Origin: Pelagibacteraceae bacterium AG-404-P07 | GTDB lineage: Bacteria > Pseudomonadota > Alphaproteobacteria > Pelagibacterales > Pelagibacteraceae | Reading direction: 5' to 3' | DNA: 55,854 nucleotides | Assembly (NCBI GenBank): GCA_003216235.1 | Contig: QCJE01000006.1 | Span: 1-55,854, forward strand | Shown here: positions 3,013 through 47,859 of the stretch, one piece after another | How the letters are laid out: each line of letters opens with the position of its first letter | How positions within the stretch are numbered: position 1 is the first letter of the stretch | The notes under the pieces: model-generated | The model's input: only the letters and a program-made list of their open reading frames with translations | What the model was told of the DNA's origin: nothing | The model's database searches: none | Program-made: the position numbers and the translations under genes

Positions 3013-3438
3013 TTAACCGCCAGGACCTAAATCTGATGGTTTAACTTTTAAAATTTTCCAAACACCTGAGGCAGATGTAATAATTTTATTGTTACATTTC
3101 AGCTCACAAAATAAAAAAACCAATGTTTTTGTTTTTTTTAAAATTTTTACATTACCAATTATTTCATCACCTATTTTTGATGCTCCAATAAATTTTAGGT
3201 CTAATGAAATGGTTACACAAGGAGCATTATCTGCAGAACGATGTGCCGCTGTACCAGCACCTGCATCTACTAAAGCTGATAAATATCCTCCGTGAGTAAT
3301 ACCAGCAGCATTTAAATGATTTTTATTAATAATCGATTTAAATTCATATTTTGTTTCAGATATATTTCTAAATAAAACACCACCATTGTGCTTCATAAAA
3401 CCTTGTTTTAAACTAATTTGTTCAAATTTTTCAGACAT
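3013..3438 (-). CDS. PaaI-family hotdog-fold acyl-CoA thioesterase
   Basis: A 141-residue single-domain protein of normal length for the PaaI / YdiI thioesterase family. The family signature is clear: THGG at residues 48-51 followed by an SALVDAGAGTAA helix whose Asp58 is the usual catalytic acid. These enzymes hydrolyse acyl-CoA or aryl-CoA thioesters, and substrates cannot be read from sequence. The start codon follows 6 nt after the stop of the 32-residue membrane protein gene at 3445-3543, so the two are probably one transcript. The C-terminus is a short glycine/proline tail. Confidence 0.88.
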   Translation of the reverse strand: MSEKFEQISLKQGFMKHNGGVLFRNISETKYEFKSIINKNHLNAAGITHGGYLSALVDAGAGTAAHRSADNAPCVTISLDLKFIGASKIGDEIIGNVKILKKTKTLVFLFCELKCNNKIITSASGVWKILKVKPSDLGPGG

Positions 3439-3444
3439 AATTTT

Positions 3445-3543
3445 TTATAATACAAAAGTTAGAATTAATAAAATTATAAATATGATCAGAAAAAAATATA
3501 TTACAGACTTTTGAAGAGGGGCTTTTGTAAACCATTTAAACAT
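3445..3543 (-). CDS. Small single-pass membrane protein, 32 residues, unknown function
   Basis: A short frame runs from ATG 3543 to TAA at 3445 and encodes MFKWFTKAPLQKSVIYFFLI followed by a continuing hydrophobic stretch. The architecture is a short basic N-terminus (K3, K7, K12) and one hydrophobic helix of about 18-20 residues covering the rest of the protein. It sits between tRNA-Arg and the thioesterase on the same strand, with a 6-nt gap to the thioesterase start and a weak AAGAA ribosome site upstream. That spacing and the clean hydrophobic composition argue for a translated microprotein. I do not recognise a family and assign no function. Confidence 0.5.
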   Translation of the reverse strand: MFKWFTKAPLQKSVIYFFLIIFIILLILTFVL

Positions 3544-3556
3544 ATTAATTCTTTTT

Positions 3557-3633
3557 TGGTGCGCCTGCTAGGAGTCGAACCCAGAGCCTCCTGGTCCGTA
3601 GCCAAGCGCTCTATCCAATTGAGCTACAGGCGC
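3557..3633 (-). tRNA. tRNA-Arg (anticodon ACG)
   Basis: On the minus strand the acceptor arms GCGCCTG and CAGGCGC pair perfectly, followed by discriminator A and an encoded CCA (complement of 3557-3559). The D arm is GCTC...GAGC, the anticodon stem CTTGG/CCAGG encloses loop CTACGGA with anticodon ACG, and the T loop is TTCGACT. Total length is 77 nt. The 5' end faces the accessory cassette that begins at 3764; the 3' end faces away from it. Confidence 0.96.
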
Positions 3634-3686
3634 ATTTTAATTTAATTTAATTATTGTATAATAAATATTAATGTATTTTAACAATT

Positions 3687-3708
3687 AAGACAAATTTAAG
3701 ACAAATTT
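3687..3708. repeat. Tandem 11-bp duplication upstream of the sugar-acid cassette
   Basis: AAGACAAATTT occurs twice back to back, at 3687-3697 and 3698-3708. The second copy overlaps the left-hand 27-bp direct repeat (3692-3718). It could be a duplicated regulator site or a slippage product at a recombination junction. It lies 56-77 bp upstream of the first cassette ATG. Confidence 0.5.
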
Positions 3709-3718
3709 TAAATTTTAT
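3692..3718. repeat. Left copy of a 27-bp direct repeat bracketing the 3764-10323 cassette
   Basis: The segment reads AAATTTAAG, then A, then CAAATTTTAAATTTTAT. The same 27 bases recur at 10375-10401 with one substitution (A to G at the tenth position). This copy precedes the first cassette gene by 45 bp, and the other copy ends on the thiolase start codon. The sequence is AT-rich, which raises the chance of coincidence, but its position at both edges of an accessory block makes a recombination or duplication scar plausible. Confidence 0.5.
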
Positions 3719-3763
3719 ATAAATAATATTAAAAATAACATAGATGACTATACTAAAAATCTA

Positions 3764-6220
3764 ATGAGTAAAAAAAATTGTGCAATTATTTTGGGTGCAG
3801 GACCTACCGGATTAATAACAGCTTGGAAACTGCTTCAAGCAGGATGGAATGTAAAAATAATCGAAAAAAAAAATATAACTGGAGGATTGTGTAGGTCCTG
3901 GAGAAGAAAGGGTTTTATAATGGATACTGGTCCACACATATTTCATACTCCCGATAATATACTTAAGTCATTTTGGAAAAAAAATTTTGGTGATTTATTA
4001 ATTGAAGGAAAATTTAGCTGTAAAAATGTTCAAGGTAAAAATTTTGATCAATTTTATGATTATCCTCTTTCAATAGAAGGTTTGAGACAATTTAATAATA
4101 AAACTAGAGTTAAGATTAAAAAAGAATTAAAAAGTTGTAACAAAAAAGATCAAAGATACAAAGCTAAAAATTATCAAGAATATATAGACTCTTTTATAGG
4201 ACCAACATTACGAAAAATGTTTTTTGAAAAATATCCTCAAAAAATTTGGGGTATAAGTACAAAAAAAATGACACCAGATTGGGCACCAAATAGAATTAAA
4301 TTTAGAGAAAAAATTTTGCCTTTTTATCATGAACAGTATGTGGCGGTAGGAAAATATGGAACAGGATGTCTTTATGATAGAATTAAAAATTTTATTTTAA
4401 AATTAGGTGGAAAATTTTTGTTAAATGAAAATGTAATTAATTTTAAATCAGAAGATGGTAAAATTATTGAGATTTTAACTAATAAAAAAACTTATAAAAT
4501 AAAAAATAATGAAGTTGTGATTTCAACATTGCCAATCAGTATAACTTCAAGACTTTTAGGTAAAAAAAATCAACTTAAATTTAGGGGCATATGTTCAGTA
4601 TATTTATTTTATAAACAAAATCAAATTTTACCAAAAAATCATCATTGGTTATATTTTGATTCAGAAAAACTTCTTTTTAATAGAGTTACTGAAAATAAAA
4701 AAATGTCAAAGTTTGTAGCACCAAAAAATAAATCTTATTTGACAGCAGAGATAACTTATACCCAAGGAGATAAATTTTCAAAATTAAAACCAAAAGAGAT
4801 TATTAATATAGTTAAGAAACAGATGGCTCAGACTGGGATTGTAGATAATAAAAAATTGATTGATGCTAGTATTAATTTTGAACCTTTTGTTTATCCTGTG
4901 CAGTTTTCAGATTATAAAGAGGAGGTTATGAGGGTTAAAAGTTTTGTCGAGAATTTTGATAACCTTTTTTCTATTGGAGCTGGAGGAGAATTTAATTATG
5001 CTGATAGTCAAATTCTTTTTCATAAATCCTTCGATTTAGTAAACAGTCTTGTAAATAGACATAATAATTTTACAAATGAATCTAAAAATATAAATACAGT
5101 AAATTTGAATAAGAGTGTTAAGATTGCAGATAAAGTGATTGGTCCAGGAAATAAAACCTTTATTATTGCAGAGGCAGGATTAAATCATAATGGAAATCTA
5201 AATATTGCAAAAAAACTAATTGATAATGCTAAAAAGACCAAATGTGATGCAATAAAATTTCAATCTTTTTTACCTGACAGTAGAGTTTCTAGATTTGTTA
5301 AATCAGAAAAATATGCAGAAAAAATTATTGGAACTCAAGAGAGTATAAGTGAATTATTTGAGAGATTAAGCCTGAATTTTAAGACACAAAAAACTATCTT
5401 TAGTTATGCAAAAAAGAGAAAAATAGTGATTTTTTCAACACCGTTCGATTTTGAAAGTGCAGATTTTTTAGACAAATTGGGTGTAGCAGCTTTTAAAATA
5501 GCGTCTGCAGATTTAGTAAATATTCCTCTGATAAAACATGTTTCAAAAAAATTTAAACCAGTAATTATATCTACGGGTATGTCAAAAATATCAGAAATAG
5601 ATGACGCTGTTGAAGCAGTTAAATCCACAGGGAATAAAAATCTTATATTATTACATTGCAACTCTTCATATCCATCAACATATTCAGAAGTTAATTTGAG
5701 ATTTATGGATACAATTAGAAAAATGTATAATATTCCAGTTGGTTTTTCTGATCATACGACTGATTTACTTTCCTCAAAAGTAGCTATTTCAAGAGGTGCA
5801 AATGTTATTGAAAGACATTTTACATTAAATAAAAAAATGGAGGGACCAGACCATATATTATCATCAGATGAAAAAGAAATGTCTGAACTAGTTAAATTTA
5901 AAAAAAATTACAATAGATGGAAGTTACTGATCAAAAAAGATTTTAAAAAAATAAGTATCAATGAAAGCATTAAATTATTATTAGGAAACGGTTTAAAAAA
6001 AATTCAACCCAATGAATATATTACTATAAATTCACAGAAAAAAAGTATTTATGCAAAAAAGGATATAAAAAAAGGTGAAAAATTTTCAAAAGATAATATT
6101 TGTATAAAAGGACCAGTAGCTGGCTTAATGCCAAAGTATTATGAAATTATAGTTGGCAGAAAAGCTGTAAGGAATGTAAAAACAGATTATCCTGTTACTT
6201 GGGATAATATTCTTAAATAA
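3764..6220 (+). CDS. Fusion protein: FAD-dependent amine-oxidase/UDP-galactopyranose-mutase-like oxidoreductase + NeuB-type sialic acid synthase + SAF domain
   Basis: An 818-residue fusion. Residues 1-445 form a FAD Rossmann oxidoreductase: LGAGPTGLITAWKLL near the N-terminus, then GGLCR and DTGPHIFHT, resembling UDP-galactopyranose mutase and protoporphyrinogen-oxidase-like enzymes. Residues about 455-720 are a NeuB synthase with IIAEAGLNHNGN, KFQSF, HCNSSYPS, VGFSDHTTD, IERHFTL and GPDHILS, so both metal-binding histidines (SDH and ERH) are kept. Residues about 755-818 are the SAF/antifreeze-like domain that normally ends NeuB. NeuB enzymes condense phosphoenolpyruvate with an amino sugar to give a nonulosonate. 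The FAD domain's substrate is unknown. The gene starts a cassette whose next start follows after 1 nt. The DNA has many A runs. The domain calls are secure; the pathway role is inferred. Confidence 0.88.
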   Translation: MSKKNCAIILGAGPTGLITAWKLLQAGWNVKIIEKKNITGGLCRSWRRKGFIMDTGPHIFHTPDNILKSFWKKNFGDLLIEGKFSCKNVQGKNFDQFYDYPLSIEGLRQFNNKTRVKIKKELKSCNKKDQRYKAKNYQEYIDSFIGPTLRKMFFEKYPQKIWGISTKKMTPDWAPNRIKFREKILPFYHEQYVAVGKYGTGCLYDRIKNFILKLGGKFLLNENVINFKSEDGKIIEILTNKKTYKIKNNEVVISTLPISITSRLLGKKNQLKFRGICSVYLFYKQNQILPKNHHWLYFDSEKLLFNRVTENKKMSKFVAPKNKSYLTAEITYTQGDKFSKLKPKEIINIVKKQMAQTGIVDNKKLIDASINFEPFVYPVQFSDYKEEVMRVKSFVENFDNLFSIGAGGEFNYADSQILFHKSFDLVNSLVNRHNNFTNESKNINTVNLNKSVKIADKVIGPGNKTFIIAEAGLNHNGNLNIAKKLIDNAKKTKCDAIKFQSFLPDSRVSRFVKSEKYAEKIIGTQESISELFERLSLNFKTQKTIFSYAKKRKIVIFSTPFDFESADFLDKLGVAAFKIASADLVNIPLIKHVSKKFKPVIISTGMSKISEIDDAVEAVKSTGNKNLILLHCNSSYPSTYSEVNLRFMDTIRKMYNIPVGFSDHTTDLLSSKVAISRGANVIERHFTLNKKMEGPDHILSSDEKEMSELVKFKKNYNRWKLLIKKDFKKISINESIKLLLGNGLKKIQPNEYITINSQKKSIYAKKDIKKGEKFSKDNICIKGPVAGLMPKYYEIIVGRKAVRNVKTDYPVTWDNILK

Positions 6221-6221
6221 A

Positions 6222-7256
6222 ATGTTTTTAAAAAATTTAAAAAAAAAATATTTAGAGGCAAAAATACTTGCAAAAAAAAAAGGAAAAAAAATTGCTTTTA
6301 TAATAGGAAATACAATTAAAATTGAAAAAGGAAACTATTATTTTACGCCACCACGGATAACCGATAAACTAGTTCTTTTTGGAATTATTGTTTTCAGAGA
6401 GTCTATAGCTATAGATGCATGTAAATATCTAGATGGTAAGGTAGATATCATTTTTGCAGATGGTGAAAAAAAAATATTTCCAAAAAAAAGTGGTGCTCCT
6501 GGAAATATAGAAAGGCGCGTTAGAGAAAGAGTAAAAAAATCAAAAGTATATATTTATAAGGGAAATGACTTAACTGTAGACTCAGTAGATTTAATCGTTA
6601 GTCAATATTTTAATAAAGATTTGAGAGGAGTAGCTGGCAAAAAAATTGGTATCATAGGAGCTGGAAATATAGGATCTAAAATTGGATTATTTATGACAGA
6701 ATTGGGTGCCAAAGTTTTTCTAAACCGAAGAAATAAAAAAAAATTAAAATGTATTGTAAATGCTATAAATTATTTGAAACCTCAGAATACTAGAGAGAAA
6801 GCAAAAATAGCGAATAAAATATTTGCTGCAAAAAATTCTGATGTTTTAATTGGTTCGACTGACGGAAAATCAGTAATAGATGAAAAAATGGTTAACTTAA
6901 TGAAAAAAAAATCAATTATTATAGATGCTGGTAAAGGAACTTTAACTGAAAATGCAATTAGAAAAGCAATTGAGAGGAAAATAGAAATTTTTAGAGTTGA
7001 TATTTTTCCTTCACTTGAGGGCCTAATTTCAAAAACATTTTCAATGGAAAAACAAATAAGTAAATTATTAAAAAATAAAAAAATTGAAAATATAAATATT
7101 TTTAACTCTGGAAAATTAGGTAAATATGGTGATTTAATTGTTGATGATATTGATAATATAAATTTAGTTTATGGTATTTGTGATGGTAAAGGAGATTTTT
7201 TAAGAAAGGTGCCCAAAAAATACAAAGTTTTGATTAGAAGAATCTTAAATAAATGA
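6222..7256 (+). CDS. NAD(P)-binding Rossmann-fold dehydrogenase-like protein of unknown substrate
   Basis: A 344-residue protein I cannot place in a named enzyme family. The clear feature is a dinucleotide-binding segment KKIGIIGAGNIGSKIG with GAGNIG at residues 146-151, followed by GAKVFLNRRNKKK, where the basic residues after the second strand hint at NADP. A later stretch, IIIDAGKGTLTENAIRKAI, resembles the hydroxyacid-dehydrogenase / adenosylhomocysteinase-type fold. The first 130 residues are a separate, lysine-rich domain with no motif I recognise. It is sandwiched between two NeuB-containing fusions: the start is 1 nt after the previous stop and the stop overlaps the next start as ATGA. 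An oxidoreductase step on the same sugar intermediate is the most economical inference. Confidence 0.7.
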   Translation: MFLKNLKKKYLEAKILAKKKGKKIAFIIGNTIKIEKGNYYFTPPRITDKLVLFGIIVFRESIAIDACKYLDGKVDIIFADGEKKIFPKKSGAPGNIERRVRERVKKSKVYIYKGNDLTVDSVDLIVSQYFNKDLRGVAGKKIGIIGAGNIGSKIGLFMTELGAKVFLNRRNKKKLKCIVNAINYLKPQNTREKAKIANKIFAAKNSDVLIGSTDGKSVIDEKMVNLMKKKSIIIDAGKGTLTENAIRKAIERKIEIFRVDIFPSLEGLISKTFSMEKQISKLLKNKKIENINIFNSGKLGKYGDLIVDDIDNINLVYGICDGKGDFLRKVPKKYKVLIRRILNK

Positions 7257-8995
7257 AAATATTTAAACACCCAGTAATATTGGAAACTGCTTGTGGACAT
7301 GATGGAAGTATAAAAACATTAAAAAAACTTGTTGATATAGCCGCAAATACTCAATCAAAAATTATTAAGTTCCAAATTTTTAACCTAAAAGAGAGAGCTA
7401 TAGAAAATACTAAAGAGCATAGAATATTTAAACCTTTGGTAATTAGTGAAAAAAATTGGAAATTAATAATTTATTATGCAAAAAAAAAGAAACTTTATGT
7501 TTTTGCAGATGTTTATGGAGATTTTAGTTTTAATTTAGCAAAAAAACTTAAAGTAGATGGATTCAAAATACACTCTGAGGATTTTTTTAATAGCTATTTT
7601 ATAGAAAAAGTAATTGATACAAAAAAACCAACAATAATTAATATTGGTGGCACCTATAAGTCGGAGGTATATAATTTGATTAATTTTTTACATAATAAAA
7701 AAAAATTATCCAAAAAAATAATATTAATGATGGGTGTTCAAACATTTCCAACACCTTTAGAGGGACATTCTCTATTTGAATTTAAAGCACTCGTTAATAA
7801 ATACTCTAAATTTAACATCTCTTTTGGATATTCAGATCATTTAGATCCAAAAAATGAATTGTCAAAAATACTACCAATCGCTGCTTTTTCATTAGGTGCA
7901 GATTTTATTGAAAAACATTTTACTGATAATAGAAAAAAGAAACGAACAGATTACCAATCAGCGATGGATGAAAACGAAATCAAAAATTTTATTAAATTGT
8001 TTAATCAATTTAAAGGCACTCTGGGTAATATTGATAAATTAAATAAACATGAAATTAAATACAGAAAAATGTTTAAAAAATCGATTGCTTTTAATAAACA
8101 AAAAAAAATTGGTGAAATTATAAAAAAAAATGATTTAAATTTTATAAAAAATAGTAAAACGCCCTCTCCAATTTTTTCACATACTATTGTTGGGAAGCAA
8201 GTTCTGAAAAATATAAAGAAAAATGAGCCATTAGATTTAAAAAAAATAAATAATAAAATTGGTGCAATTATAGTTGCAAGAATGACCTCCAAAAGACTTC
8301 CTAAAAAAGCTATACAGAAAATAAATGGTGAAAATTCTTTAACCCTTGTTATTCGGCGAATTAAAAAAATTAAAAATATTGATGAAATAATATTAGCAAC
8401 TTCAACACATGGATCTGATAATTATTTAAAAAAAATAGCTCAAAAAGAAAAAATTAAATTTTTCAGAGGCTCTTTAAATAAAGTAGCTAATAGATACTTT
8501 GAAGCAGCAAAAAAATATAAATTAGATCACTTTGTAAGAGTAACTGGGGATGCTATTCTCTGTGACGAAGTAATGTTGAATAAAGCAATAGATAGCCATA
8601 TTTTAAAAAAAGCAGATGTCACTTTTATAAAAAATATGCCATATGGTACTGCTAAGGAGATAGTCTCTTTTGATAGTATTAAAACAATTAATAATACCGC
8701 ACAAAAAAAAGATAACACTGAATATTTAGAATGGTTTTTGGAAAATAACAAAAATTTTAAAGTTAATTATATTAAATCAAAATATGTTTTTAATAAATCA
8801 ATGCGTTTAACATTAGATTATAAAGAGGATTTAAAATTATTTAATATCATATTCAAAAAATTTGATAATAAATGTAATTTTACATTACAAGATGTTCTTA
8901 GTTTTTTAAAAAAAAATCCTAAATACCTTAAAATAAATAATTTTTTGGTGCCAAAATTTGAAAAGACAGATATTAATACAGAATTGAAAATATGA
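7253..8995 (+). CDS. Fusion protein: divergent NeuB-like synthase + SAF-like linker + SpsF/CMP-sugar cytidylyltransferase-like domain
   Basis: A 580-residue bifunctional protein. Residues 1-262 are a divergent NeuB barrel: ILETACGHDGS replaces the usual IAEAGxNHNG, MGVQTFPTP replaces HCxSxYP, and GYSDH and IEKHFT keep the two metal histidines. The following acidic/His motif is TDYQSAMDENE instead of PDHxxS. Residues about 268-330 look like a SAF domain (HTIVGKQVLKNIKKNEPLDL). Residues about 335-570 match the SpsF/NeuA nucleotidyltransferase fold: GAIIVARMTSKRLPKKA, ATSTHGSDN, FFRGS and RVTGDA. Such enzymes load a sugar acid onto a nucleotide, usually CMP. The start overlaps the previous stop and the stop overlaps the next start (ATGA both times), implying translational coupling. 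Confidence 0.85.
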   Translation: MKIFKHPVILETACGHDGSIKTLKKLVDIAANTQSKIIKFQIFNLKERAIENTKEHRIFKPLVISEKNWKLIIYYAKKKKLYVFADVYGDFSFNLAKKLKVDGFKIHSEDFFNSYFIEKVIDTKKPTIINIGGTYKSEVYNLINFLHNKKKLSKKIILMMGVQTFPTPLEGHSLFEFKALVNKYSKFNISFGYSDHLDPKNELSKILPIAAFSLGADFIEKHFTDNRKKKRTDYQSAMDENEIKNFIKLFNQFKGTLGNIDKLNKHEIKYRKMFKKSIAFNKQKKIGEIIKKNDLNFIKNSKTPSPIFSHTIVGKQVLKNIKKNEPLDLKKINNKIGAIIVARMTSKRLPKKAIQKINGENSLTLVIRRIKKIKNIDEIILATSTHGSDNYLKKIAQKEKIKFFRGSLNKVANRYFEAAKKYKLDHFVRVTGDAILCDEVMLNKAIDSHILKKADVTFIKNMPYGTAKEIVSFDSIKTINNTAQKKDNTEYLEWFLENNKNFKVNYIKSKYVFNKSMRLTLDYKEDLKLFNIIFKKFDNKCNFTLQDVLSFLKKNPKYLKINNFLVPKFEKTDINTELKI

Positions 8996-10323
8996 AAAAT
9001 ATTCAAAAAAATAAACAAGATATTCTTGTAGGTTCTTCAAAGCTTAATGATAAGAAAAAATCTATTTTTGATAAAAAAAATTATATGTTGGAACATATGA
9101 ACTTGAACAGAGCATTCACTCACATAGTAGATAAAAATGGTTTTGATGATGTTAAGAAAAAAGATTTATTAAATGATTATAGAGAAAATTATGAAGAATA
9201 TCGTTATAATTGGACTAATTCTTTAAATGTAAAGAATAAGTCTAGGCCCCTATCAGTTGATATTGAAATAGCAGCGATCTGCGATTTAGCATGTCCTCAT
9301 TGTCATAGAGAATTTTTGGTAACACCCGACAAAGTTATAAATTTTGACTTATATAAATCTATTATTGATCAAGCAGTAAAATTAAATGTGCCTTCTGTAA
9401 AACTTATTTGGCGTGGAGAGCCATTATTGCATCCGAAAGTAAAAGAATTAATTCAATACGCCAAGGAGTCAGGAATAGTTGAAGTTATTATTAATACTAA
9501 CGGTACTAACTTAAATACTAAAAAAGCAAACGATTTGATTGACTCTGGTTTAGACCAATTAATTTATTCTTTTGATGGCGGAACAAAAGAGACTTACGAA
9601 AAAATGAGACCTGGAAGATTTAAAAAAAATAATTTTGATGATGTTTTCAATAATATTAAAAGTTTTTATGAAATCAGAAAAAAAAGAAATTCAAAATTTC
9701 CAATTACAAAAATCCAAATGATAATGACAAAAGATACAAGAGATGAAGTGGAGAACTTTTACTCATTATTTGGTGATATTGTAGATGACGTAACAATAAC
9801 TCAATATAATGAGAGAGGTGGGAACATAAGTGATCTAGATAAACAAACCAAAGATAAAATAATGAATTATTTTAAGAAAAATAATCTTCCGGAAAAAACT
9901 CCATATATGGTTGATATTGATAATAATATTTTTGTATCATTAAAAAGAAAACCATGTGAACAAATTTATCAAAGACTAATGGTAACTTATAGTGGTAGAG
10001 TTGGAATGTGTTGTCATGATTGGGGCGCAAGACACGGCATTGGTTATTTGAGCAAAGAAGCTTTCAATGAAGAAAATGATAAACAAGAAGTAGTTAAAAA
10101 AATTAATAAAAATCAAAAAGGTTTTCAATTATTAAAAGATGCAAAAAACCCTAAAAATTTAAATGAACCTGAGAAAAAAATTGAAACTTTAAAAGATATT
10201 TGGCAAGGCAAAGAGCTTGAAAGAGTAAGAAATTTTCACGAAAATGGAAAGATTGACTCAATACCAGTTTGTAAGAATTGCACTTTTAAGGATACTTATG
10301 ATTGGAAATTAATAGATATTTAA
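8992..10323 (+). CDS. Radical SAM protein with C-terminal SPASM-like cysteine region
   Basis: A 443-residue protein with the radical SAM cluster motif CDLACPHC, cysteines at residues 97, 101 and 104, preceded by VDIEIAAI. It is followed by RGEPLLHP, the family's GGEP-equivalent motif, here with Arg for the first Gly. The C-terminal part has CEQIYQR, GMCCHDWG and CKNCTFKD, consistent with a SPASM region carrying an auxiliary iron-sulfur cluster. An unusual 85-residue lysine/asparagine-rich N-terminal extension precedes the barrel. Radical SAM/SPASM proteins of this kind occur in surface-polysaccharide loci, where they are thought to modify sugars, although the substrate is unknown. It is the last gene of the cassette and its start overlaps the previous gene by 4 nt. 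Confidence 0.88.
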   Translation: MKNIQKNKQDILVGSSKLNDKKKSIFDKKNYMLEHMNLNRAFTHIVDKNGFDDVKKKDLLNDYRENYEEYRYNWTNSLNVKNKSRPLSVDIEIAAICDLACPHCHREFLVTPDKVINFDLYKSIIDQAVKLNVPSVKLIWRGEPLLHPKVKELIQYAKESGIVEVIINTNGTNLNTKKANDLIDSGLDQLIYSFDGGTKETYEKMRPGRFKKNNFDDVFNNIKSFYEIRKKRNSKFPITKIQMIMTKDTRDEVENFYSLFGDIVDDVTITQYNERGGNISDLDKQTKDKIMNYFKKNNLPEKTPYMVDIDNNIFVSLKRKPCEQIYQRLMVTYSGRVGMCCHDWGARHGIGYLSKEAFNEENDKQEVVKKINKNQKGFQLLKDAKNPKNLNEPEKKIETLKDIWQGKELERVRNFHENGKIDSIPVCKNCTFKDTYDWKLIDI

Positions 10324-10374
10324 ATTTCATTTATTTATTTTTTGCTAATCAATATGTTAACTTTTAAAGTATTT

Positions 10375-10401
10375 AAATTTAAGGCAAATTTTAAATTTTA
10401 T
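10375..10401. repeat. Right copy of the 27-bp direct repeat, ending on the thiolase start codon
   Basis: The segment reads AAATTTAAG, G, CAAATTTTAAATTTTAT and matches 3692-3718 at 26 of 27 positions. Its last two bases are the AT of the thiolase ATG (10400). If this is the ancestral thiolase leader, the left copy would be the remnant created when the 6.6-kb cassette was inserted between tRNA-Arg and the thiolase. Confidence 0.5.
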
Positions 10402-11575
10402 GGATAACAAATCAGATGAAGTAGTTATTGTAAGTGCAATGAGAACACCAATAGGTACCTACAAAGGTTCATTAAAAAATTTAAGATCCGATCAACTTGG
10501 ATCTATAGTTATAAAAGAAATTTTAAAAGAATCTAAATTTAATAAAGATGAAATTGACGAAGTAATTATGGGTCAAGTATTAACTGCAGGTGCTGGGCAG
10601 AACCCAGCAAGACAAGCTGCAATAAATGCTGGCATACCAATTTCAAAACCAGCTCATATAGTTAATCAAGTATGTGGGTCTGGACTTAGAGCAGTGATAT
10701 CAGGTTATCAATCAATCAAATTAGGAGAGTCAATAAATGTAATTTCTGGAGGCCAAGAGAATATGTCAATAGCCCCACACTCAATCTTTTATAGAGATGA
10801 TAAGAAAATTTCAGAAGATAGACTATCGGATACAATGATTAATGATGGACTAATGGATGCTTTCAATAATTATCATATGGGTGTAACAGCAGAAAATGTT
10901 GCAAAAAAATTTAATATATCAAGAGAAGAACAAGATCAATTTGCATTGAATTCCCAAAAAAAAACAGAAGTAGCATTGATCGATAATAAATTTAATGATG
11001 AGTTAATTAAGATCAATCACTATGGTAATATTTTAGATAAGGACGAACATCCGAGAGCTAATTTAAAATTATCCGATTTAGAAAAATTAAAAACAGTATT
11101 TCAAGATAATGGCACTGTTACACCCGGAAATTCTTCAGGGATAAATGATGGTGCTGCAGCTTTATTTTTGACTTCTTTAGAACACGCAGAAAAAAAATCT
11201 ATTAAACCATTAGCAAAAATAGTGTCATGGGCCTCTGTTGGAGTAGATCCTACTTTAATGGGATTAGGACCTATTGAAGCTGTTAGAGAAGCAACTAAAA
11301 AAGCAAAATGGAATTTGAATGAAATTGATTTATTTGAGATAAATGAAGCTTTTGCTGCTCAAAGTATAGCGGTAATTCGTGAATTAGGTATCGAACAAAA
11401 TAAAGTTAATGTAAATGGAGGAGCGATTGCTCTCGGTCATCCTATTGGCGCATCTGGAGCAAGAATACTGGTAACTTTAGTGCATGAAATGAAAAGACAA
11501 AAAAAAAACAAAGGTTGCGCCACACTTTGCATAGGTGGAGGAATGGGTATAGCTTTGTGTGTTGAGAGAATTTAG
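10400..11575 (+). CDS. phaA: Acetyl-CoA C-acetyltransferase (thiolase)
   Basis: A 391-residue protein, the normal length for a biosynthetic-type thiolase, condensing or cleaving acetoacetyl-CoA. The nucleophilic cysteine lies in NQVCGSGLRAV (Cys92). The active-site NEAFAAQ is present, followed by GGAIALGHPIGASGAR (His347) and the acid/base cysteine in CIGGGMGIAL (Cys377). The start is the ATG at 10400, immediately after an AT-rich leader with no strong Shine-Dalgarno site. The gene stands alone: the upstream cassette ends 76 nt earlier and the pyruvate dehydrogenase genes begin 208 nt later. phaA and atoB are equally acceptable names, because the direction of use cannot be told from sequence. 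Confidence 0.95.
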   Translation: MDNKSDEVVIVSAMRTPIGTYKGSLKNLRSDQLGSIVIKEILKESKFNKDEIDEVIMGQVLTAGAGQNPARQAAINAGIPISKPAHIVNQVCGSGLRAVISGYQSIKLGESINVISGGQENMSIAPHSIFYRDDKKISEDRLSDTMINDGLMDAFNNYHMGVTAENVAKKFNISREEQDQFALNSQKKTEVALIDNKFNDELIKINHYGNILDKDEHPRANLKLSDLEKLKTVFQDNGTVTPGNSSGINDGAAALFLTSLEHAEKKSIKPLAKIVSWASVGVDPTLMGLGPIEAVREATKKAKWNLNEIDLFEINEAFAAQSIAVIRELGIEQNKVNVNGGAIALGHPIGASGARILVTLVHEMKRQKKNKGCATLCIGGGMGIALCVERI

Positions 11576-11688
11576 GAATTAATCTTTCCGTACTTTTCTT
11601 CTAGTAAAATTTTTTGTATCCATATTTTTGCATCAATATTAGTACTTACTTTTGGTTGAATAAGTGTTTTTAATAACTTTTTAATCAT
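11572..11688 (-). CDS. Possible 38-residue protein convergent with the thiolase gene
   Basis: A short minus-strand frame, ATG 11688 to TAA 11572, encodes MIKKLLKTLIQPKVS followed by an amphipathic, charged C-terminus ending EEKYGKINS. It shares the sequence TTAG with the thiolase stop (11572-11575), the same 4-nt shared-stop geometry seen at three other convergent gene pairs in this window, which is mild support for its being real. The frame is open for another 20 codons upstream of the ATG but without a standard start codon. I recognise no family. It could also be chance coding in a 208-bp spacer. Confidence 0.3.
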   Translation of the reverse strand: MIKKLLKTLIQPKVSTNIDAKIWIQKILLEEKYGKINS

Positions 11689-11729
11689 TTTTGAAGCATG
11701 TACGTAAAGAGTGTCAAAAATTTGAGCAG

Positions 11730-11759
11730 AATGTGTTAAGATTTGCGTTTAACAACATT
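11730..11759. promoter_or_regulatory. Imperfect inverted repeat upstream of aceE
   Basis: AATGTGTTAA (11730-11739) and TTAACAACATT (11749-11759) are complementary apart from one bulged base, around the 9-nt loop GATTTGCGT. The centre is about 40 bp upstream of the aceE ATG (11784). The right arm is followed by a run of T (11758-11762), so it may be an AU-rich transcription terminator for the thiolase gene or an operator for the pdh genes. The sequence alone does not decide between these. Confidence 0.4.
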
Positions 11760-11783
11760 TTTATAGTGTATAAGACTTAAAAA

Positions 11784-14700
11784 ATGACTGAAAAATTATT
11801 TGTTCCAGATATTGGAGATTTTGAAAATGTTGAGATAATAGAATTGCTTGTTAAAAAAGGGCAAGTAATTAAAAAAAATGATCCAGTAGTTACTATAGAA
11901 AGTGACAAATCTAGTGTTGAGATACCATCAATTTTTTCAGGAAAAATTGATTCTATAGTTGTAAAAGTTGGTGATAAAGTTTCAAAGGGTGATTTAATTT
12001 TAAATATATCAAGTGTTGATCAAAAAATTTCTTCGTCGCAAGATGTTCCAAAAAATACAGAAAATTTAATTCAAGAAGCGGAAAGCTCCTTAATAAAAGA
12101 TCAAGAACAAAAAAAAACATCTCAAAAAATAAAAAAAGAAAAACCTGAAATAATACAGGTTATAAATGAGGAGGATATTGATCCATTAGAGACAAGTGAA
12201 TGGTTAGAATCTCTTTCAGATGTCATAGACAAAGATGGAAATCAGAGAGCTCATTATTTGATTAAGGAATTAATTAATAAAGCTTACATGGAAGGAGCAA
12301 ATATTCCATATACTCAAAACACTCCTTATATTAATTCGATTCCTGTCAGTGATGAAAAAAAATCAAATGGTGATCAAAATATAGAAAGAAGAATAAGATC
12401 TTTAATTAGATGGAATGCTGCTGCAATGGTAGTAAGGGCAAATAAAAAATTTCCTGAACTTGGAGGCCATATAGGAACCTTTGCTTCTGCTGCTACATTA
12501 TATGATGTTGGAATGAACCATTTTTGGAGGGCCAAAAATAATAAATTCGGAGGAGATTTAGTTTATTTTCAAGGACATAGTGCACCGGGCATGTATGCTA
12601 GAGCATTTCTTGAGGGAAGACTAAATGAAAAACAATTAGACAGTTTTAGACAAGAGGTTAATCCAGGTGGTTTATCTTCTTACCCTCACCCATGGTTAAT
12701 GCCAAACTTTTGGCAATTTCCGACTGTTTCAATGGGTTTAGGACCAATGCTAGCTATTTATCAAGCTAGATATATGAAATATTTAATTAATAGAGGTTTG
12801 ATTAAAGATGAAGGTAGGAAGGTTTGGGCATTTTTGGGAGATGGAGAAATGGATGAGCCAGAGTCTCTTGGAGCAATAGGTTTAGCTGCAAGGGAAAAAT
12901 TAGATAATCTTATATTTGTTGTAAATTGTAATCTTCAAAGATTGGATGGACCTGTACGAGGGAATGGAAAAATCATACAAGAATTAGAGGGAATTTTCAG
13001 GGGTGCAGGATGGAATGTCATTAAAGTGATATGGGGCTCCTATTGGGATCAGTTATTAGCAAATGACAAAACAGGACACTTAGTGAAGACAATGAACGAA
13101 ACAGTTGACGGTGAATATCAAGCAATGAAAGCAAGAGATGGTGCTTATGTTAGAGAAAAATTTTTTGGAAAATATCCAGAAACTAAAGAATTGGTTTCTA
13201 GTCTTTCTGATAAAGATATCTGGAGATTAAATAGAGGAGGTCATGATCCTCATAAAGTCTTTGCCGCATATGATAAAGCATCTAAAAATAAAGGAAGCCC
13301 AACAGTCGTAATTGCTAAGACTATCAAAGGTTATGGTATGGGTAAAAGTGGAGAAAGTGTAAATACTACGCATCAGACTAAGAAATTAGATGTTGATGAT
13401 TTAATGTATTATAGAGATAGATTTGATGTTCCTTTGACAGATCAACAGGTTAGAAATATTGAATATTACAAACCTGATCAAAATTCTCTAGAGACAAAAT
13501 ATATTAAAGAAAGAAGACTTAAATTAGGTGGTTTTATTCCAGAAAGGACCACTTATGCAAAGTCAATTAAAGCACCTCCTAAAGATATTTTTGACAATAT
13601 GAAAGTTTCAACTGGTAAAAAAGAAATGTCTACTACAATGGCATTAGTGAGAATGCTAACAAATCTCTTGAGAGATAAAAATGTTGCACCTCGATTAGTC
13701 CCTATTATTCCTGATGAGGCTAGAACATTTGGTATGGAAGGTTTTTTTCAAAAAGTTGGGATATATGCTCATGAGGGACAAAAATATGAACCTGAAGACT
13801 CTGCTCAATTGAGTTCTTATAGAGAGGAAAAAAGTGGACAAGTTTTAGAGGAAGGAATTAATGAAGCTGGTGCAATGTCTTCTTGGATTGCGGCAGGAAC
13901 CTCTTATACAAATCATGATATTGAAATGATACCTATTTATCTTTTTTACTCGATGTTTGGATTTCAAAGAGTTGGGGACTTTGCATGGGCAGGTGCAGAT
14001 AGTCAGTCTAGAGGATTTTTAATTGGAGCTACAGCTGGAAGAACAACTTTAGCTGGTGAAGGGCTTCAGCATCAAGATGGTCACAGTCATCTTATGGCTT
14101 CAACTATTCCCAACTGTATATCATATGATCCAACCTTTCATTATGAATTAGCAGTTATTTTTAGAGATGGATTGAAAAGGATGCATGAAAAAAAAGAGAA
14201 TATTTTTTACTATATTACAACTATGAATGAAAATTATCCTCATCCAGCTATGCCTAAAGACAAATCCTGTGAAGAAGGAATTTTAAAAGGAATGTATAAA
14301 ATAAAAGAATTTAATAAATATAAAAAAACTAAAATCCAATTTTTGGGATCTGGAACAATTTTAAGAGAAATGATTGCAGGTGCTGAAATATTACAGAAAG
14401 AATATCAAATAGATAGCGAAATTTGGAGTGTAACAAGTTTTAATGAGTTAAGAAGAGATGGTCTAGAAGTAGAAAGATATAATCTTTTAAATCCAGACAA
14501 GGAACCAAAGAAGTCTTATGTTGAAAAATGTTTAGGTAAAACAGAAGGGCCTATTTTGGCTGCTTCGGATTATATGAGAATGAATTCAGATCAAATAAGA
14601 CCCTACATTAATAAAAGTTTTTATTCACTAGGAACAGATGGGTTTGGACGAAGTGATACACGAAAAAATTTAAGAAATTTCTTTGAAGTTGATAAGGAGC

Positions 14701-35255: not shown

Positions 35256-36314
35256 ATGAAAATAAAAAAAATTTTTCAAAACATTTTTAAAAAGACATTT
35301 CAGTTTTTATTTAAATTTTTATATGGAAGGATTATAATAAATCAAAATCAACAAAAGATACATTATAAGCAAAAAAAAATTAGTTCAGATAACTATTTGT
35401 ATGAAATAAAAAATGGGAGAATTTATACAGATTTAGTTGAACATGTAGCCATCATCCAAGATAATTTCATTTTGCCAAATATTTCTTATCAACAGATTCA
35501 TGGTAATTTTAAAAATATTGATTTTAATAAAACTTTAATAACAGGTACGCCTAGATTTCTAAAAAAATTTAAAGGTAGTATTTTATCTCTTGTTCAAGGA
35601 GCAAGTGGCAATAATTATTTTCATTTTTTATTTGATATAGCAACAAAACTAAAACTATGTGAACAAAATTTAAATCTGAGTCGAATTGATTATTTTTATT
35701 TACCAGGAATAGCTAACTGGCAAAAAAAAATTCTCTCTGTTTTTGAAATATTCGAGAATAGAATGATAAACAGTCTACAACACAGACATATTCAAGCTGA
35801 TACTATTTTTGCTTTAGAGCAACCTTGGTATAAAAAAGGTTTTGTACAAAACGAAATAAATGAAATTCCTGATTGGATTATTTATTCTCTAAGGGAGAAA
35901 TTTTTGTCATATAAAAAAAAATTTCAATCAAATGACAAAATTTTTATAGATAGATCAGACTCATTATATAATCATTGTAAATTAATTAATAATAAAGAAA
36001 TTATAAAATTTTTATCTGATAATGGTTTTTCTAGTTATAAAATTAGTGAGCTTGATTTTTTTGAACAAATCTATTTATTTCATAATGCTAAAGTTATAAT
36101 AGGCCCTCATGGAGCTGCGTTTACAAATTTAATTTTTTCAAATCCAAGTTTGAAAATAATGGAAATTATCCCTGAAAATCATTCAAGTAAAAAGTGCAAA
36201 AAATTTTCTGAAATATTAAATTTTAATTACAAAAGAATTGAATTACCAAAAATAAACAAACATCAAGATGGTGATATGTTTTTAGAAATTGATGAAATTA
36301 AAAAATTAATTTAG
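35256..36314 (+). CDS. GT61-family (DUF563) glycosyltransferase
   Basis: A 352-residue protein. A basic N-terminus with a hydrophobic patch is followed by the GT61 landmarks: QGASGNNYFHFLFDI (the conserved NYFHWL-like motif) and IIGPHGAAFTNLIFSNP (the GxHGAxxxN motif) near residue 285. GT61 enzymes in bacteria add sugars such as xylose or heptoses to lipopolysaccharide or capsule; the specificity is unknown. The 3' end overlaps the convergent GT17 gene within TTAG at 36311-36314. It is probably an outer-surface glycan tailoring enzyme working with its neighbours. Confidence 0.9.
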   Translation: MKIKKIFQNIFKKTFQFLFKFLYGRIIINQNQQKIHYKQKKISSDNYLYEIKNGRIYTDLVEHVAIIQDNFILPNISYQQIHGNFKNIDFNKTLITGTPRFLKKFKGSILSLVQGASGNNYFHFLFDIATKLKLCEQNLNLSRIDYFYLPGIANWQKKILSVFEIFENRMINSLQHRHIQADTIFALEQPWYKKGFVQNEINEIPDWIIYSLREKFLSYKKKFQSNDKIFIDRSDSLYNHCKLINNKEIIKFLSDNGFSSYKISELDFFEQIYLFHNAKVIIGPHGAAFTNLIFSNPSLKIMEIIPENHSSKKCKKFSEILNFNYKRIELPKINKHQDGDMFLEIDEIKKLI

Positions 36315-37111
36315 ATTAACCATTCTTTAAGTAAATCTTTGTTTTCTAATATAAATTTTGGAAAAGTTTGGTCTAATTCTACTTTTTCATATTTAAAATT
36401 TCTTTTAAATAAATCTCTATAATTCAAGATATTCTCTTTAATAATTTCTTCATCAGAATACTCTGGTGAAGAAAATTCTTGATGCGCAAATGATCTAAGT
36501 TTTGATGAGATTTCTATTGGTGTTAATAATGAATTAAAATGCCATCCTCCATTACTTATTATTTCTAAATTTTTATCTTTATAAAATTTCCAAAAAGGAG
36601 CTTTTAAATTTTTAGAATTAATTTTTTGTCTCATATAATCAATAGATTTAAGATCTTTTTTTTTGCATATTCTTGTCCCTTCCCAAGGAGTTTCAAATTT
36701 ATTGTATAAATTAAATTTATAACAATATGACTTTTGAAAAAAAATTCCATATTTTTTATTTAAATTTATATTCTGCAGAACTTTAGGATTTGGAATTTCA
36801 TCTGGATCAGAAAATAAAATATAATCGTTAGAGTCTGCGAAATCTAAATTATCTAAAATATATTCTCTTTGGATTGCTTGATTTTTCCAAGGATTATTTG
36901 TTTTAGGAAAAGGTGTTTCATATTTTAAATAAATTAATTTTTTTTTAAATTTTTCATTAAATAATTTAAAGTTAAGATTTTTTTTCTCTCCAATATGACT
37001 AAATTTTGATTCACAAATAACAAAATAGTCTACATACTCATTTAGAATTTCAAATCTTATATTTGTTATAAAATTTTCTTGATAAAATGTTATACAATCA
37101 AATATTTTCAT
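36311..37111 (-). CDS. GT17-family glycosyltransferase (N-acetylglucosaminyltransferase III-like)
   Basis: A 266-residue protein with the GT17 opening IFDCITFYQENFITNIRFEI, VICESKFSHIGEKKNL and the metal-binding region DYILFSDPDEIPNP, which contains the DPDE acidic cluster. The name-giving eukaryotic enzyme adds bisecting GlcNAc; bacterial members are uncharacterised glycan-locus genes. It is on the opposite strand to GT61, overlapping it by 4 nt, and its start lies 50 bp before tRNA-Ser. I infer a role in surface-glycan synthesis from the neighbourhood. Confidence 0.88.
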   Translation of the reverse strand: MKIFDCITFYQENFITNIRFEILNEYVDYFVICESKFSHIGEKKNLNFKLFNEKFKKKLIYLKYETPFPKTNNPWKNQAIQREYILDNLDFADSNDYILFSDPDEIPNPKVLQNINLNKKYGIFFQKSYCYKFNLYNKFETPWEGTRICKKKDLKSIDYMRQKINSKNLKAPFWKFYKDKNLEIISNGGWHFNSLLTPIEISSKLRSFAHQEFSSPEYSDEEIIKENILNYRDLFKRNFKYEKVELDQTFPKFILENKDLLKEWLI

Positions 37112-37161: not shown

Positions 37162-37251
37162 GGAGAGATGGCCGAGTGGTTTAAGGCGCACGCTTGGAAA
37201 GCGTGTAAAGGGGTAACTCTTTCATGGGTTCGAATCCCATTCTCTCCGCCA
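37162..37251 (+). tRNA. tRNA-Ser (anticodon GGA)
   Basis: GGAGAGA (37162-37168) pairs with TCTCTCC (37241-37247), followed by discriminator G and an encoded CCA at 37249-37251. The D arm is GCCGAGTGG...GGC, the anticodon arm ACGCTTGGAAAGCGT has anticodon GGA, a long variable arm (AAGGGGTAACTCTTT region) is typical of class II serine tRNAs, and the T arm contains GGTTCGAATCCC. Total 90 nt. Confidence 0.96.
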
Positions 37252-45935: not shown

Positions 45936-46115
45936 ATGCAATTTATAAAAAAAACAAGTTCGAGAACAAGTATTCTTAGTATTGTTATAAAATTATTGTT
46001 AGTATTATTTGTGATTCTTGGAGTTGTTTATCTACTCAATAAAATAGATTTTCCTGCACCGCTTAAAGAAATAGAAAAAATAATTCCTAATGAGAATTTT
46101 AAAATTGTTAAATAA
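45936..46115 (+). CDS. Small single-pass membrane protein, 59 residues, unknown function
   Basis: ATG 45936 to TAA 46115 encodes a 59-residue protein starting MQFIKKTSSRTSILSIVIK, with one hydrophobic helix (LLLVLFVILGVVYLL, about residues 20-35), then a polar tail KIDFPAPLKEIEKIIPNENF. The positive N-terminus and helix suggest N-in insertion, with the tail in the periplasm. It overlaps the following periplasmic protein gene by 26 nt, and no ribosome site dictates another start. The FPAP(K/L)KEIEKIIP-type tail gives the impression of a conserved protein, but I recognise no named family. Confidence 0.65.
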   Translation: MQFIKKTSSRTSILSIVIKLLLVLFVILGVVYLLNKIDFPAPLKEIEKIIPNENFKIVK

Positions 46116-47859
46116 AAAATATTTTTTAATTATATTTATTTTCTTTTCATTAAATATTCACGCTGAAGAAAAACCAGTTGATATATGGAATATAGGTAAA
46201 GAAAATATTGGGGAAAATTCTTTAAAAGAGATAGCAGATAACGAGATTACTACGAGTATTAATAACAGTAATGAAACTAGTATTTATGAAATGCAATCAA
46301 AAAAAAAAATTGAAAGTATAGAACTAGATGAAAATTTGAATTTAAATGAAATTAATTTATTAGGTTTATATGATCCTGAAAAATTTGATTTAGATATTAA
46401 TATGTGGATCCATTCAGATGGAGATCAACTAAAAAATATTTTTTCGAAATTATTTAAAATAAATTTTTCAGATGATGCAAAAGAAATTATGAATATATCT
46501 GTTTTAACTAATTCGTATTCTCCAAAAAAAAATATTTCAAAAAATGAATTTTTGAAATTCAAATCAGATTGGTTAATTAAAAACTCAGATTTTGATTTAA
46601 TTAGAGAATATCTTATTAAGAATCAAGCTTTTGATCTTCAACCAGAATTAACACGATTTTTTATAAATGAATACTTATCGAATTTTGAAATTGAAAAAGC
46701 TTGTGACATATTTTCAGAAAATTTAAATCCTATAAATGATAAATATTTATCAAAGTTTGAAATATATTGTTTGATTAAATCAAATAAAAATAATGAAGCC
46801 CAAATCTTATTTGACTTAAAAAAAGAACTTGGTTTTAAAGATAAGTATTTTGAAAAAAAAATAAATATTCTATTTGGTTATACAGATGAAATTGATAAGA
46901 GTATTTCAGAAAAAACTATTCTTGATTTTCATTTAGCCCATATTACAAATCCTAATTTCGAATTTGAACCAGAAGAAACAACTAATAAAATAATTTGGAG
47001 ATATCTTTCTTCTTCAAATTTATTAAAATCTTTTAAAGAAGTAGATACAAAAAATTTAGATAAAATTTCAACTATTGAAAAAGCCGTTCATAACAAAAAT
47101 TATCCAGAAAAAGATCTTTTTAATTTATATAAAAGATTTCAATTTAGTATAAATCAACTTTTGAATGCAAAAGAAAATTATCAATCCTTGTCTAACATTG
47201 AAGCAAGAGCATTAATTTATCAAAAAATTTTACTTGAATCAGAAATGGTAGAAAAATTAAAATTGTTAAAAATATTGAAAGAATCTTTTAAAAAAGATGA
47301 TATCGACCAAGCTTTTGACAAGGAATTAAAGAAATATTTAAATGAAATGGATCCACTTAAAATACCTGATACTTTAACTAGTTTTTATTACACAAACATT
47401 AAAATTAAAAAAGAAGAGGATAAAAAAATAAAATATAATAATGACATTATACATCAATCTAAACTTGTTAATTATTTTAATGGTGATTATTCAAAATCTA
47501 AAATTACTAAAGATATAAATAACTTTTTAAGAAAAATAAAAAAAAATAAAAAATACTTTCTTTCAAAAAAAGATATAATTTTAATTGAGTCGTTAAAGTC
47601 TGATGGGATAGTTGTAGAAAAAAAATATGATGATTTGTACGAAATAAATATATCAGAAATACCGACTGATATTCAGGTAATGATAAATAATAAAGAAAAG
47701 GGTGCTGCTCTGCTAAGAATAGCAGAAGTTATTGGTCAAGATGAACTAGAAAGAATAGATGAAGACACTATTTATTTTATAATAAGTACTTTAAATCAGC
47801 TAAATATTGACTCTATAAGAAATAAAATTTTACTAAAAGTTCTCCCTTTAAAAGTATAA
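46090..47859 (+). CDS. Exported alpha-helical repeat protein, unknown function
   Basis: A 589-residue protein with a clear Sec signal peptide: MRILKLLNKK, a hydrophobic core and probable cleavage after NIHA. The mature protein is rich in Lys, Asn, Glu and Leu and helical throughout, with a solenoid-like pattern. No enzyme motif is visible. The C-terminus (ALLRIAEVIGQDELERID onward) has a leucine-rich helix-turn-helix character that I associate with conserved periplasmic alphaproteobacterial proteins of unknown role. It overlaps the preceding membrane microprotein gene by 26 nt and precedes def by 24 nt. A role in the cell envelope is likely but unproven. Confidence 0.75.
   Translation: MRILKLLNKKYFLIIFIFFSLNIHAEEKPVDIWNIGKENIGENSLKEIADNEITTSINNSNETSIYEMQSKKKIESIELDENLNLNEINLLGLYDPEKFDLDINMWIHSDGDQLKNIFSKLFKINFSDDAKEIMNISVLTNSYSPKKNISKNEFLKFKSDWLIKNSDFDLIREYLIKNQAFDLQPELTRFFINEYLSNFEIEKACDIFSENLNPINDKYLSKFEIYCLIKSNKNNEAQILFDLKKELGFKDKYFEKKINILFGYTDEIDKSISEKTILDFHLAHITNPNFEFEPEETTNKIIWRYLSSSNLLKSFKEVDTKNLDKISTIEKAVHNKNYPEKDLFNLYKRFQFSINQLLNAKENYQSLSNIEARALIYQKILLESEMVEKLKLLKILKESFKKDDIDQAFDKELKKYLNEMDPLKIPDTLTSFYYTNIKIKKEEDKKIKYNNDIIHQSKLVNYFNGDYSKSKITKDINNFLRKIKKNKKYFLSKKDIILIESLKSDGIVVEKKYDDLYEINISEIPTDIQVMINNKEKGAALLRIAEVIGQDELERIDEDTIYFIISTLNQLNIDSIRNKILLKVLPLKV

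Follow-up and report, generated by a model that had tools for sequence, protein, structure and literature searches.

The window analysed here, a stretch of 55,854 nucleotides from Pelagibacteraceae bacterium AG-404-P07 (contig QCJE01000006.1), is contig C6 of a 937-kb assembly that is 79% complete and carries a cassette of four genes, A-B-C-D, at positions 3764-10323. All four open reading frames (ORFs) are intact and lie on the plus strand, with a 1-nt gap between A and B and ATGA overlaps at the B/C and C/D junctions, and neither of the two terminator-like sites in the 3400-10500 region is on that strand. An earlier interpretation made from the DNA letters alone (hereafter, the sequence-only reading) took the four genes for one unit, and both the boundaries and the coupling hold. 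Gene A (3764-6220; 818 amino acids (aa)) encodes a fusion of a flavoprotein similar to UDP-galactopyranose mutase (UGM) with a NeuB-type synthase; gene B (6222-7256; 344 aa) encodes an NAD(P)-type Rossmann protein from a family without a Pfam model of its own; gene C (7253-8995; 580 aa) encodes a fusion of a second, divergent NeuB with a domain resembling SpsF and other cytidine monophosphate (CMP)-sugar synthetases; and gene D (8992-10323; 443 aa) encodes a radical SAM/SPASM protein.

Domain architecture of the cassette proteins

The N-terminal part of A (residues 1-449; 3764-5110) matches the broad Pfam flavin families NAD_binding_8/Amino_oxidase and was read from the letters alone as an FAD oxidoreductase. 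A search of solved structures with a 13-row profile narrows this assignment: the top matches are UGMs (3gf4, E 3.4e-23), as are all of the best 20 distinct sequences, and the domain matches both bacterial UGM (Glf) and, nearly at full length, eukaryotic UGM. We mapped UGM positions onto the 13 A homologues via the alignment to 3gf4/1wam (chain numbering), which we take to be the Klebsiella enzyme. H60, H63, Y155, W160, R174, R280, Y314, Y349 and D351 are invariant in all 13, and the FAD-binding GxGxxG motif is present in each; the roles that we attach to the UGM active-site residues, among them two key arginines, are assumed. In the portion of PMC7662398 consulted, UGM is described as dependent on reduced flavin and as forming an N5-iminium in which the ring has opened. 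Together, this mechanism and the likeness to UGM make nucleotide-sugar chemistry a likelier function for the domain than simple oxidation, with B as a conceivable reductant.

Both NeuB domains are recognized well above the PF03102 gathering score of 22.1 bits (A residues 485-715, 5216-5908, 269 bits; C residues 26-261, 7328-8035, 119 bits), so that the two different NeuB fusions seen in the sequence-only reading stand. In A, a SAF (antifreeze-like) domain follows (residues 761-816; 6044-6211; Pfam 40.4 bits, cut-off 21); no SAF match was found by Pfam in C of the window. A tree of 35 NeuB domains places the 13 A-type sequences and the 11 C-type sequences each on one side of a 100/99 branch; one C-type row (L125) is long-branched, and the remaining 11 rows do not form one group. 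Positions of NmNeuB were mapped through the alignment to 2wqp. All 24 A- and C-type domains retain E25, K53, Q55, K129, D214, H215, E234, H236 and D247, with K53, H236 and D247 presumably being catalytic or Mn-binding positions. E25, Q55, K129, H215 and E234 figure in the NmNeuB residue list in the part of PMC6795526 consulted. A loss of catalytic residues, which the sequence-only reading had named as a possible objection to itself, is thus not observed: the metal-binding and core catalytic residues are kept in both domains.

The two types diverge at other positions. The position of NmNeuB Arg314, in the SAF part, is occupied by Gly (12) or Ser (1) in the 13 A-type domains, with Gly in A of the window, and by Lys or Arg in the C-type domains. 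The same part of PMC6795526 reports that NmNeuB R314A is inactive and R314K active, which, judging from the aligned residues, suggests that A probably handles a substrate group different from that of NmNeuB. In the C-type domains, Asn184 is replaced by Gln in 11/11 and Tyr186 by Phe in 9/11. The combination of a SAF domain with an Arg314 equivalent, which serves as the criterion for nonulosonate synthases, is found neither in A (SAF, no Arg) nor in C (Lys/Arg, no SAF match). A third NeuB match in the same genome (22.8 bits, contig C1) is a 295-aa ORF resembling DAHP synthase and was rejected as a nonulosonate synthase.

The C-terminal part of C contains a CTP_transf_3 domain (residues 338-523; 8264-8821; PF02348, 77.6 bits, cut-off 22.6), and its nearest solved structure is 6oew, annotated as a cytidylyltransferase (E 5.5e-23). 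The motifs R..S.R...K, GD...D and LTLD, which we take to define SpsF-type CMP-sugar synthetases, are kept in the compared stretches of six fused C-type proteins, in agreement with the SpsF-like nucleotidyltransferase originally proposed. The radical SAM/SPASM assignment of D is confirmed as well, both Pfam domains scoring over their cut-offs: the radical SAM core (residues 92-259; 9265-9768; PF04055, 56.6 bits) with C97-x3-C101-x2-C104, a CxxxCxxC motif whose cysteines are kept in 3/3 rows compared, and the SPASM domain (residues 322-360; 9955-10071; PF13186, 36.0 bits). The nearest solved structure to D is the cytosylglucuronate decarboxylase BlsE (7VOB/7VOC; E 6e-7), which presumably acts on a cytosine-linked sugar acid; the likeness is confined to residues 97-210, the common radical SAM core, and implies no shared specificity. 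The spiro-SPASM model TIGR04321 spans the end of C (residues 349-560, model 10-227) and the start of D (residues 74-281, model 218-426), at 29.3 and 62.2 bits, respectively, both under the cut-off of 250. In spiro-SPASM proteins, one model thus covers what are here two separate genes with a NeuB attached, hinting, from weak sequence similarity, at a link between nucleotidyltransferases and radical SAM proteins in other systems as well.

For B, Pfam yields only generic Rossmann-type models (best over residues 134-262). A search with the single B sequence found matches in 74 of 150 genomes, with E <1e-30 only in its own genome and in G001 and G103; the rest, at 1e-8 or weaker, look like generic Rossmann proteins and were set aside.

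Two separable modules at a tRNA-adjacent site

A scan of GTDB contigs with B identified two loci, L024 (AG-892-C18) and L025 (AG-365-O14), both from uncultured Pelagibacteraceae and both with the four genes in order; on the basis of these relatives, the genome of the window is taken to be of the SAR11 type. The B profile gave 9 matches at E<=1e-15 across 397 Pelagibacterales genomes, or 10 genomes with G001, and A directly adjoins B in all 10. The full A-B-C-D order occurs in four of them, namely, the window, L024 (presumably G286), L025 (presumably G358) and L063 (G282), in differing surroundings, with 50-88% protein identity between the window cassette and the other three. Shared gene order had been suggested as a check in the sequence-only reading, and its recurrence in these three loci indicates that the association of the genes is not due to chance.

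Beyond the order, in a sample of 398 genomes from the phylum, B is present in 8, its own genome included. A is found near B in 5 of the other 7: it adjoins B in G551 and G824, lies 2.5-5 kb away in G548 and G576, and is represented by a cut-off fragment about 1 kb from B in G604. In the G551 locus (L102, 11927-18625), the genes next to A-B-C were identified by eye as a transketolase-like pair, an aminotransferase and genes of the GHMP-kinase/nucleotidyltransferase kind; these neighbours may hint at the sugar that is made. Of ten neighbouring genes named by eye and then checked with Pfam, seven have a family and three have none at E<=1e-8.

D follows a different partner. Across the 397 Pelagibacterales genomes, D has 11 matches at E<=1e-40, and at each of the ten strong ones (E<=5.3e-68), a C-type NeuB and an SpsF-like gene adjoin D or lie within 3 kb. 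The two are fused and adjoin D at five loci (the window, L024, L025, L063 and L064), are separate and adjoin D at four (L123, L124, L125 and, with D truncated where its contig stops, L127), and lie 2.8 kb from D in L126. At the eleventh match (G389; 7e-41, residues 52-289), neither NeuB nor SpsF is present in the 6 kb read. In a phylum sample of 229 genomes, D was found at E<=1e-40 in its own genome only. A further NeuB outside the C-type occurs within the stretch read at 9 of the 10 D loci, the tenth stretch being a 5.8-kb contig; NeuB- or SpsF-like matches are found in 212 of the 397 genomes, so that this co-occurrence alone proves little. In L064, this further NeuB is an ORF of 232 aa (7073-7771), short for the family and not among the sequences of the tree, beside the C-D pair. 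The cassette, then, is composed of two separable modules, A+B and C+D, rather than forming the single compact pathway that the sequence-only reading had envisaged.

The cassette of the window is located between tRNA-Arg(acg) (3557-3633, minus strand) and a thiolase gene, flanked by the two copies of a 27-bp direct repeat on the plus strand. The left (3692-3718) and right (10375-10401) copies are identical at 26 of 27 positions, and the right copy runs into the thiolase start codon. The match exceeds chance expectation: when both flanks were dinucleotide-shuffled 200 times, the longest match was 21 (one mismatch allowed). The flanking thiolase was found in 8 of 10 genomes queried, and the site was compared in the window and four others. 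In all four relatives (G286, G151, G152 and G012), the site is empty: the thioesterase, the same tRNA-Arg(acg) and the thiolase form an uninterrupted run, the two protein genes being 248-272 bp apart. In G286, identity across the six matching proteins at the empty site is 67-95% (81-95% for five of them), and this genome carries the cassette on another contig. D of the window is closer to L024 (88%), and A, B and C are closer to L025 (82, 83 and 74%); the switch lies near position 8960, with 8958-10323 being L024-like, which indicates that parts of the cassette recombine. Among the neighbouring ORFs, no recombinase was seen by eye, with no search aimed at recombinases having been made. The cassette seems to be a mobile or transferable unit that was inserted here beside a tRNA gene, and the 27-bp repeat is a possible scar of the insertion.

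No relatives were identified in IMG/VR, whether B (as a single sequence and as an alignment) or D was used for the scan, and the phage and plasmid collections contain no match to B. D matches 137 plasmid records, all at <60% identity, two of which cover >80% of D at 23-24%; in one phage record, the match extends over 22% of D. No plasmid record covers 80% of A. The radical SAM genes of Brachyspira plasmids were set aside, with no NeuB or SpsF annotated in the 24.8 kb shown.

A candidate nonulosonate route and its alternatives

Neither the cassette ORFs nor their Pfam matches include a dehydratase, an aminotransferase or an acetyltransferase, so the cassette does not qualify as a pseudaminic cluster. 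The sequence-only reading was correct on this absence of early genes from the cassette, but the genome does not lack them: contig C1 of the same assembly encodes PseB-like (388.5 bits, cut-off 407.75), PseC-like (398.8, cut-off 423.5) and PseH-like (88.4, cut-off 93.1) proteins and a PseF-like protein over its cut-off (253.5 versus 205.7). These genes partly account for the absence from the cassette. The hydrolysing epimerase PF02350 has 0 matches in the assembly, and the only PseG-like sequence is a weak stretch (25.8 bits, cut-off 153.55) at the N-terminus of an 1826-aa ORF on C1 (L134, 2110-7590) that has no Pfam match. The pseudaminic/polysaccharide locus on C1 (L028) also contains DAHP-synthase-like and shikimate-dehydrogenase-like genes separated by what looks, by eye, like a NodU-like carbamoyltransferase (8271-11895), and a single 458-aa ORF (3866-5242) in which a glycosyltransferase-2-like part precedes a part resembling a CMP-sugar synthetase of the PseF kind. 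In L024 and L025, PseB, PseC and PseI score over their cut-offs in the 19 kb read around the cassette. In those genomes, the cassette is thus additional to a PseI, and such surroundings reinforce the proposal of a route to an activated nonulosonate-like sugar.

Our preferred explanation, held with moderate confidence and drawn from sequence comparison, is that the cassette is a mobile, two-module unit that would make and CMP-activate one or two atypical nonulosonate-like (3-deoxy-2-ulosonic) acids for a cell-surface glycan. The class of pathway is well supported, gene order, modules, residues, clades and insertion site being direct observations; the chemistry is predicted throughout. In the first module, the conserved UGM residues suggest that the reduced-FAD domain of A acts on a nucleotide-sugar, and the conserved residues of the fused NeuB suggest condensation of the sugar with phosphoenolpyruvate; Gly at the Arg314 position would fit a sugar handled unlike N-acetylmannosamine. 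B would be a dedicated NAD(P)-dependent partner that either acts on the same sugar or keeps the flavin reduced. In the second module, the divergent NeuB of C would make its own ulosonic acid, and the SpsF-like domain would couple an ulosonic acid to CMP; given the presence of a C-type NeuB and a nucleotidyltransferase at 10/10 strong D matches, D may modify that sugar or its CMP form.

Several observations weigh against this scheme. In the UGM-like domain, Y185 is replaced by Phe, N270 by Tyr and D353 by Gln in all 13 homologues, R178 and E283 are kept in 10 and 12 of the 13, respectively, and A scores 47 bits against the cut-off of 304 of the UGM equivalog TIGR00031; these features, along with the fusion to a nonulosonate-type synthase, set A apart from known UGMs. 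The synthase equivalogs TIGR03569/TIGR03586 (cut-offs 400/340) are matched below cut-off by both A (339/285 bits) and C (156/127), and at the position of NmNeuB E134, every A-type domain has Asp, with Asp (7), Glu (3) or Asn (1) in the C-type domains. The libraries searched yielded no B relative of known function, and the AlphaFold models of B and of the A flavin domain (three sequences each; mean pLDDT 55 and 40, respectively) were of insufficient quality for comparing folds and were set aside. Outside the order, A was not seen in the stretches read of two of the seven genomes with B (G524 and G544), and the G551 genome has A-B-C and no D match, so that D is not always needed. Finally, the setting of the cassette in the window consists of housekeeping genes, with no adjoining glycosyltransferase.

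Of the competing explanations, the one that comes closest, albeit still unlikely, is that the flavin domain of A is a plain oxidase or dehydrogenase that works with B to oxidise or epimerise a sugar or the finished ulosonic acid, with no UGM-type covalent chemistry. The best NCBIfam flavin matches of A are indeed hypothetical-protein families (PRK07208, about 188 bits), below cut-offs, three of the mapped UGM positions differ throughout, and an NAD(P)-type protein adjoins A in each of the ten Pelagibacterales genomes; the uniform UGM identity of the best structural matches and the invariance of the two presumed key arginines, W160, Y314, Y349 and D351 argue for the UGM-like reading instead. 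It is somewhat less probable that the cassette only supplies late steps of ordinary pseudaminic or legionaminic synthesis, with A standing in for PseI, C for PseI/PseF, and the early genes located on C1. Such a division of labour would accommodate the PseB-, PseC-, PseH- and PseF-like genes there and the fact that, apart from the DAHP-synthase-like ORF, no other NeuB was found in the assembly. Against it, with the assembly 79% complete, the missing PseI may be unsequenced, L024 and L025 carry the cassette in addition to a PseI, and the A-type NeuB forms its own clade, with the arginine at position 314 lost in 13/13. A loss of ulosonic acid synthesis by the NeuB-type domain of C, in favour of another condensation or a binding role, appears improbable: the substitutions at Asn184 and Tyr186 and the missing SAF match would fit such a change, but the metal ligands, E25, K53 and K129 are kept in 11/11, and the Lys/Arg at the Arg314 position is compatible with the activity of R314K NmNeuB (in the part of PMC6795526 cited above).

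NeuB needs an open-chain aldehyde. Within the preferred two-module scheme, a more specific, unlikely version is that A is a self-feeding synthase: reduced FAD would displace the nucleotide from an NDP-sugar, the flavin-N5 iminium would open the ring, and the open-chain aldose would be passed directly to the fused NeuB, with B keeping the flavin reduced and, in the second module, the radical SAM protein remodelling a CMP-ulosonate. The open-chain hand-over within A is speculation. If this version is correct, covalent flavin catalysis would replace the hydrolysing epimerase or PseG of the known pathways.

With those pathways (PseBCHGIF and SpsM-C-D-G-E-F of B. subtilis), the cassette shares a NeuB-type synthase and an SpsF/PseF-type CTP-transferase; it differs in the UGM-like and SpsF-like fusions, the extra Rossmann protein, the radical SAM protein and the separate synthase clades. 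SpsE and SpsF are assigned to the legionaminic acid route in the part of PMC7439481 consulted. A fused NeuB in a nonulosonate pathway, the Leptospira NeuB-phosphatase, is described in a section of PMC3438082, with a partner domain and an organism group different from those of the cassette. The available text of PMC5109656 names separate glf and neu genes, and that of PMC3765264 presents a NeuB operon and mentions no UGM-NeuB fusion. A prior description of the locus, which the sequence-only reading had considered, was not found in the open-access literature searched (subscription papers and preprints being outside its scope): no paper there pairs nonulosonic acid with radical SAM or joins three of SpsF, radical SAM, cytidylyltransferase and SPASM, and among the matches listed for SAR11 glycans and for flagellin/radical SAM/nonulosonate, no such cassette is described.

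Implications for SAR11 surface chemistry

Elsewhere in the window, glycosyltransferase genes of families 61 and 17 (35256-37111) lie by tRNA-Ser (37162-37251), perhaps another small surface-glycan insertion, and a 589-aa ORF (46090-47859) has 21% GC and no Pfam match at E<=0.001.

Few cells in the ocean outnumber SAR11 bacteria, and phages and grazers presumably encounter them through their surface sugars. If our explanation is correct, nonulosonate chemistry would be extended by two sub-families of synthases, by a route to ulosonic acids that involves flavin and by a step that depends on a radical SAM protein, and such a route could travel as a single 6.6-kb unit to a site beside a tRNA gene, away from the usual polysaccharide locus. 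The cassette provides concrete genes for tracing the origin of unusual surface acids.

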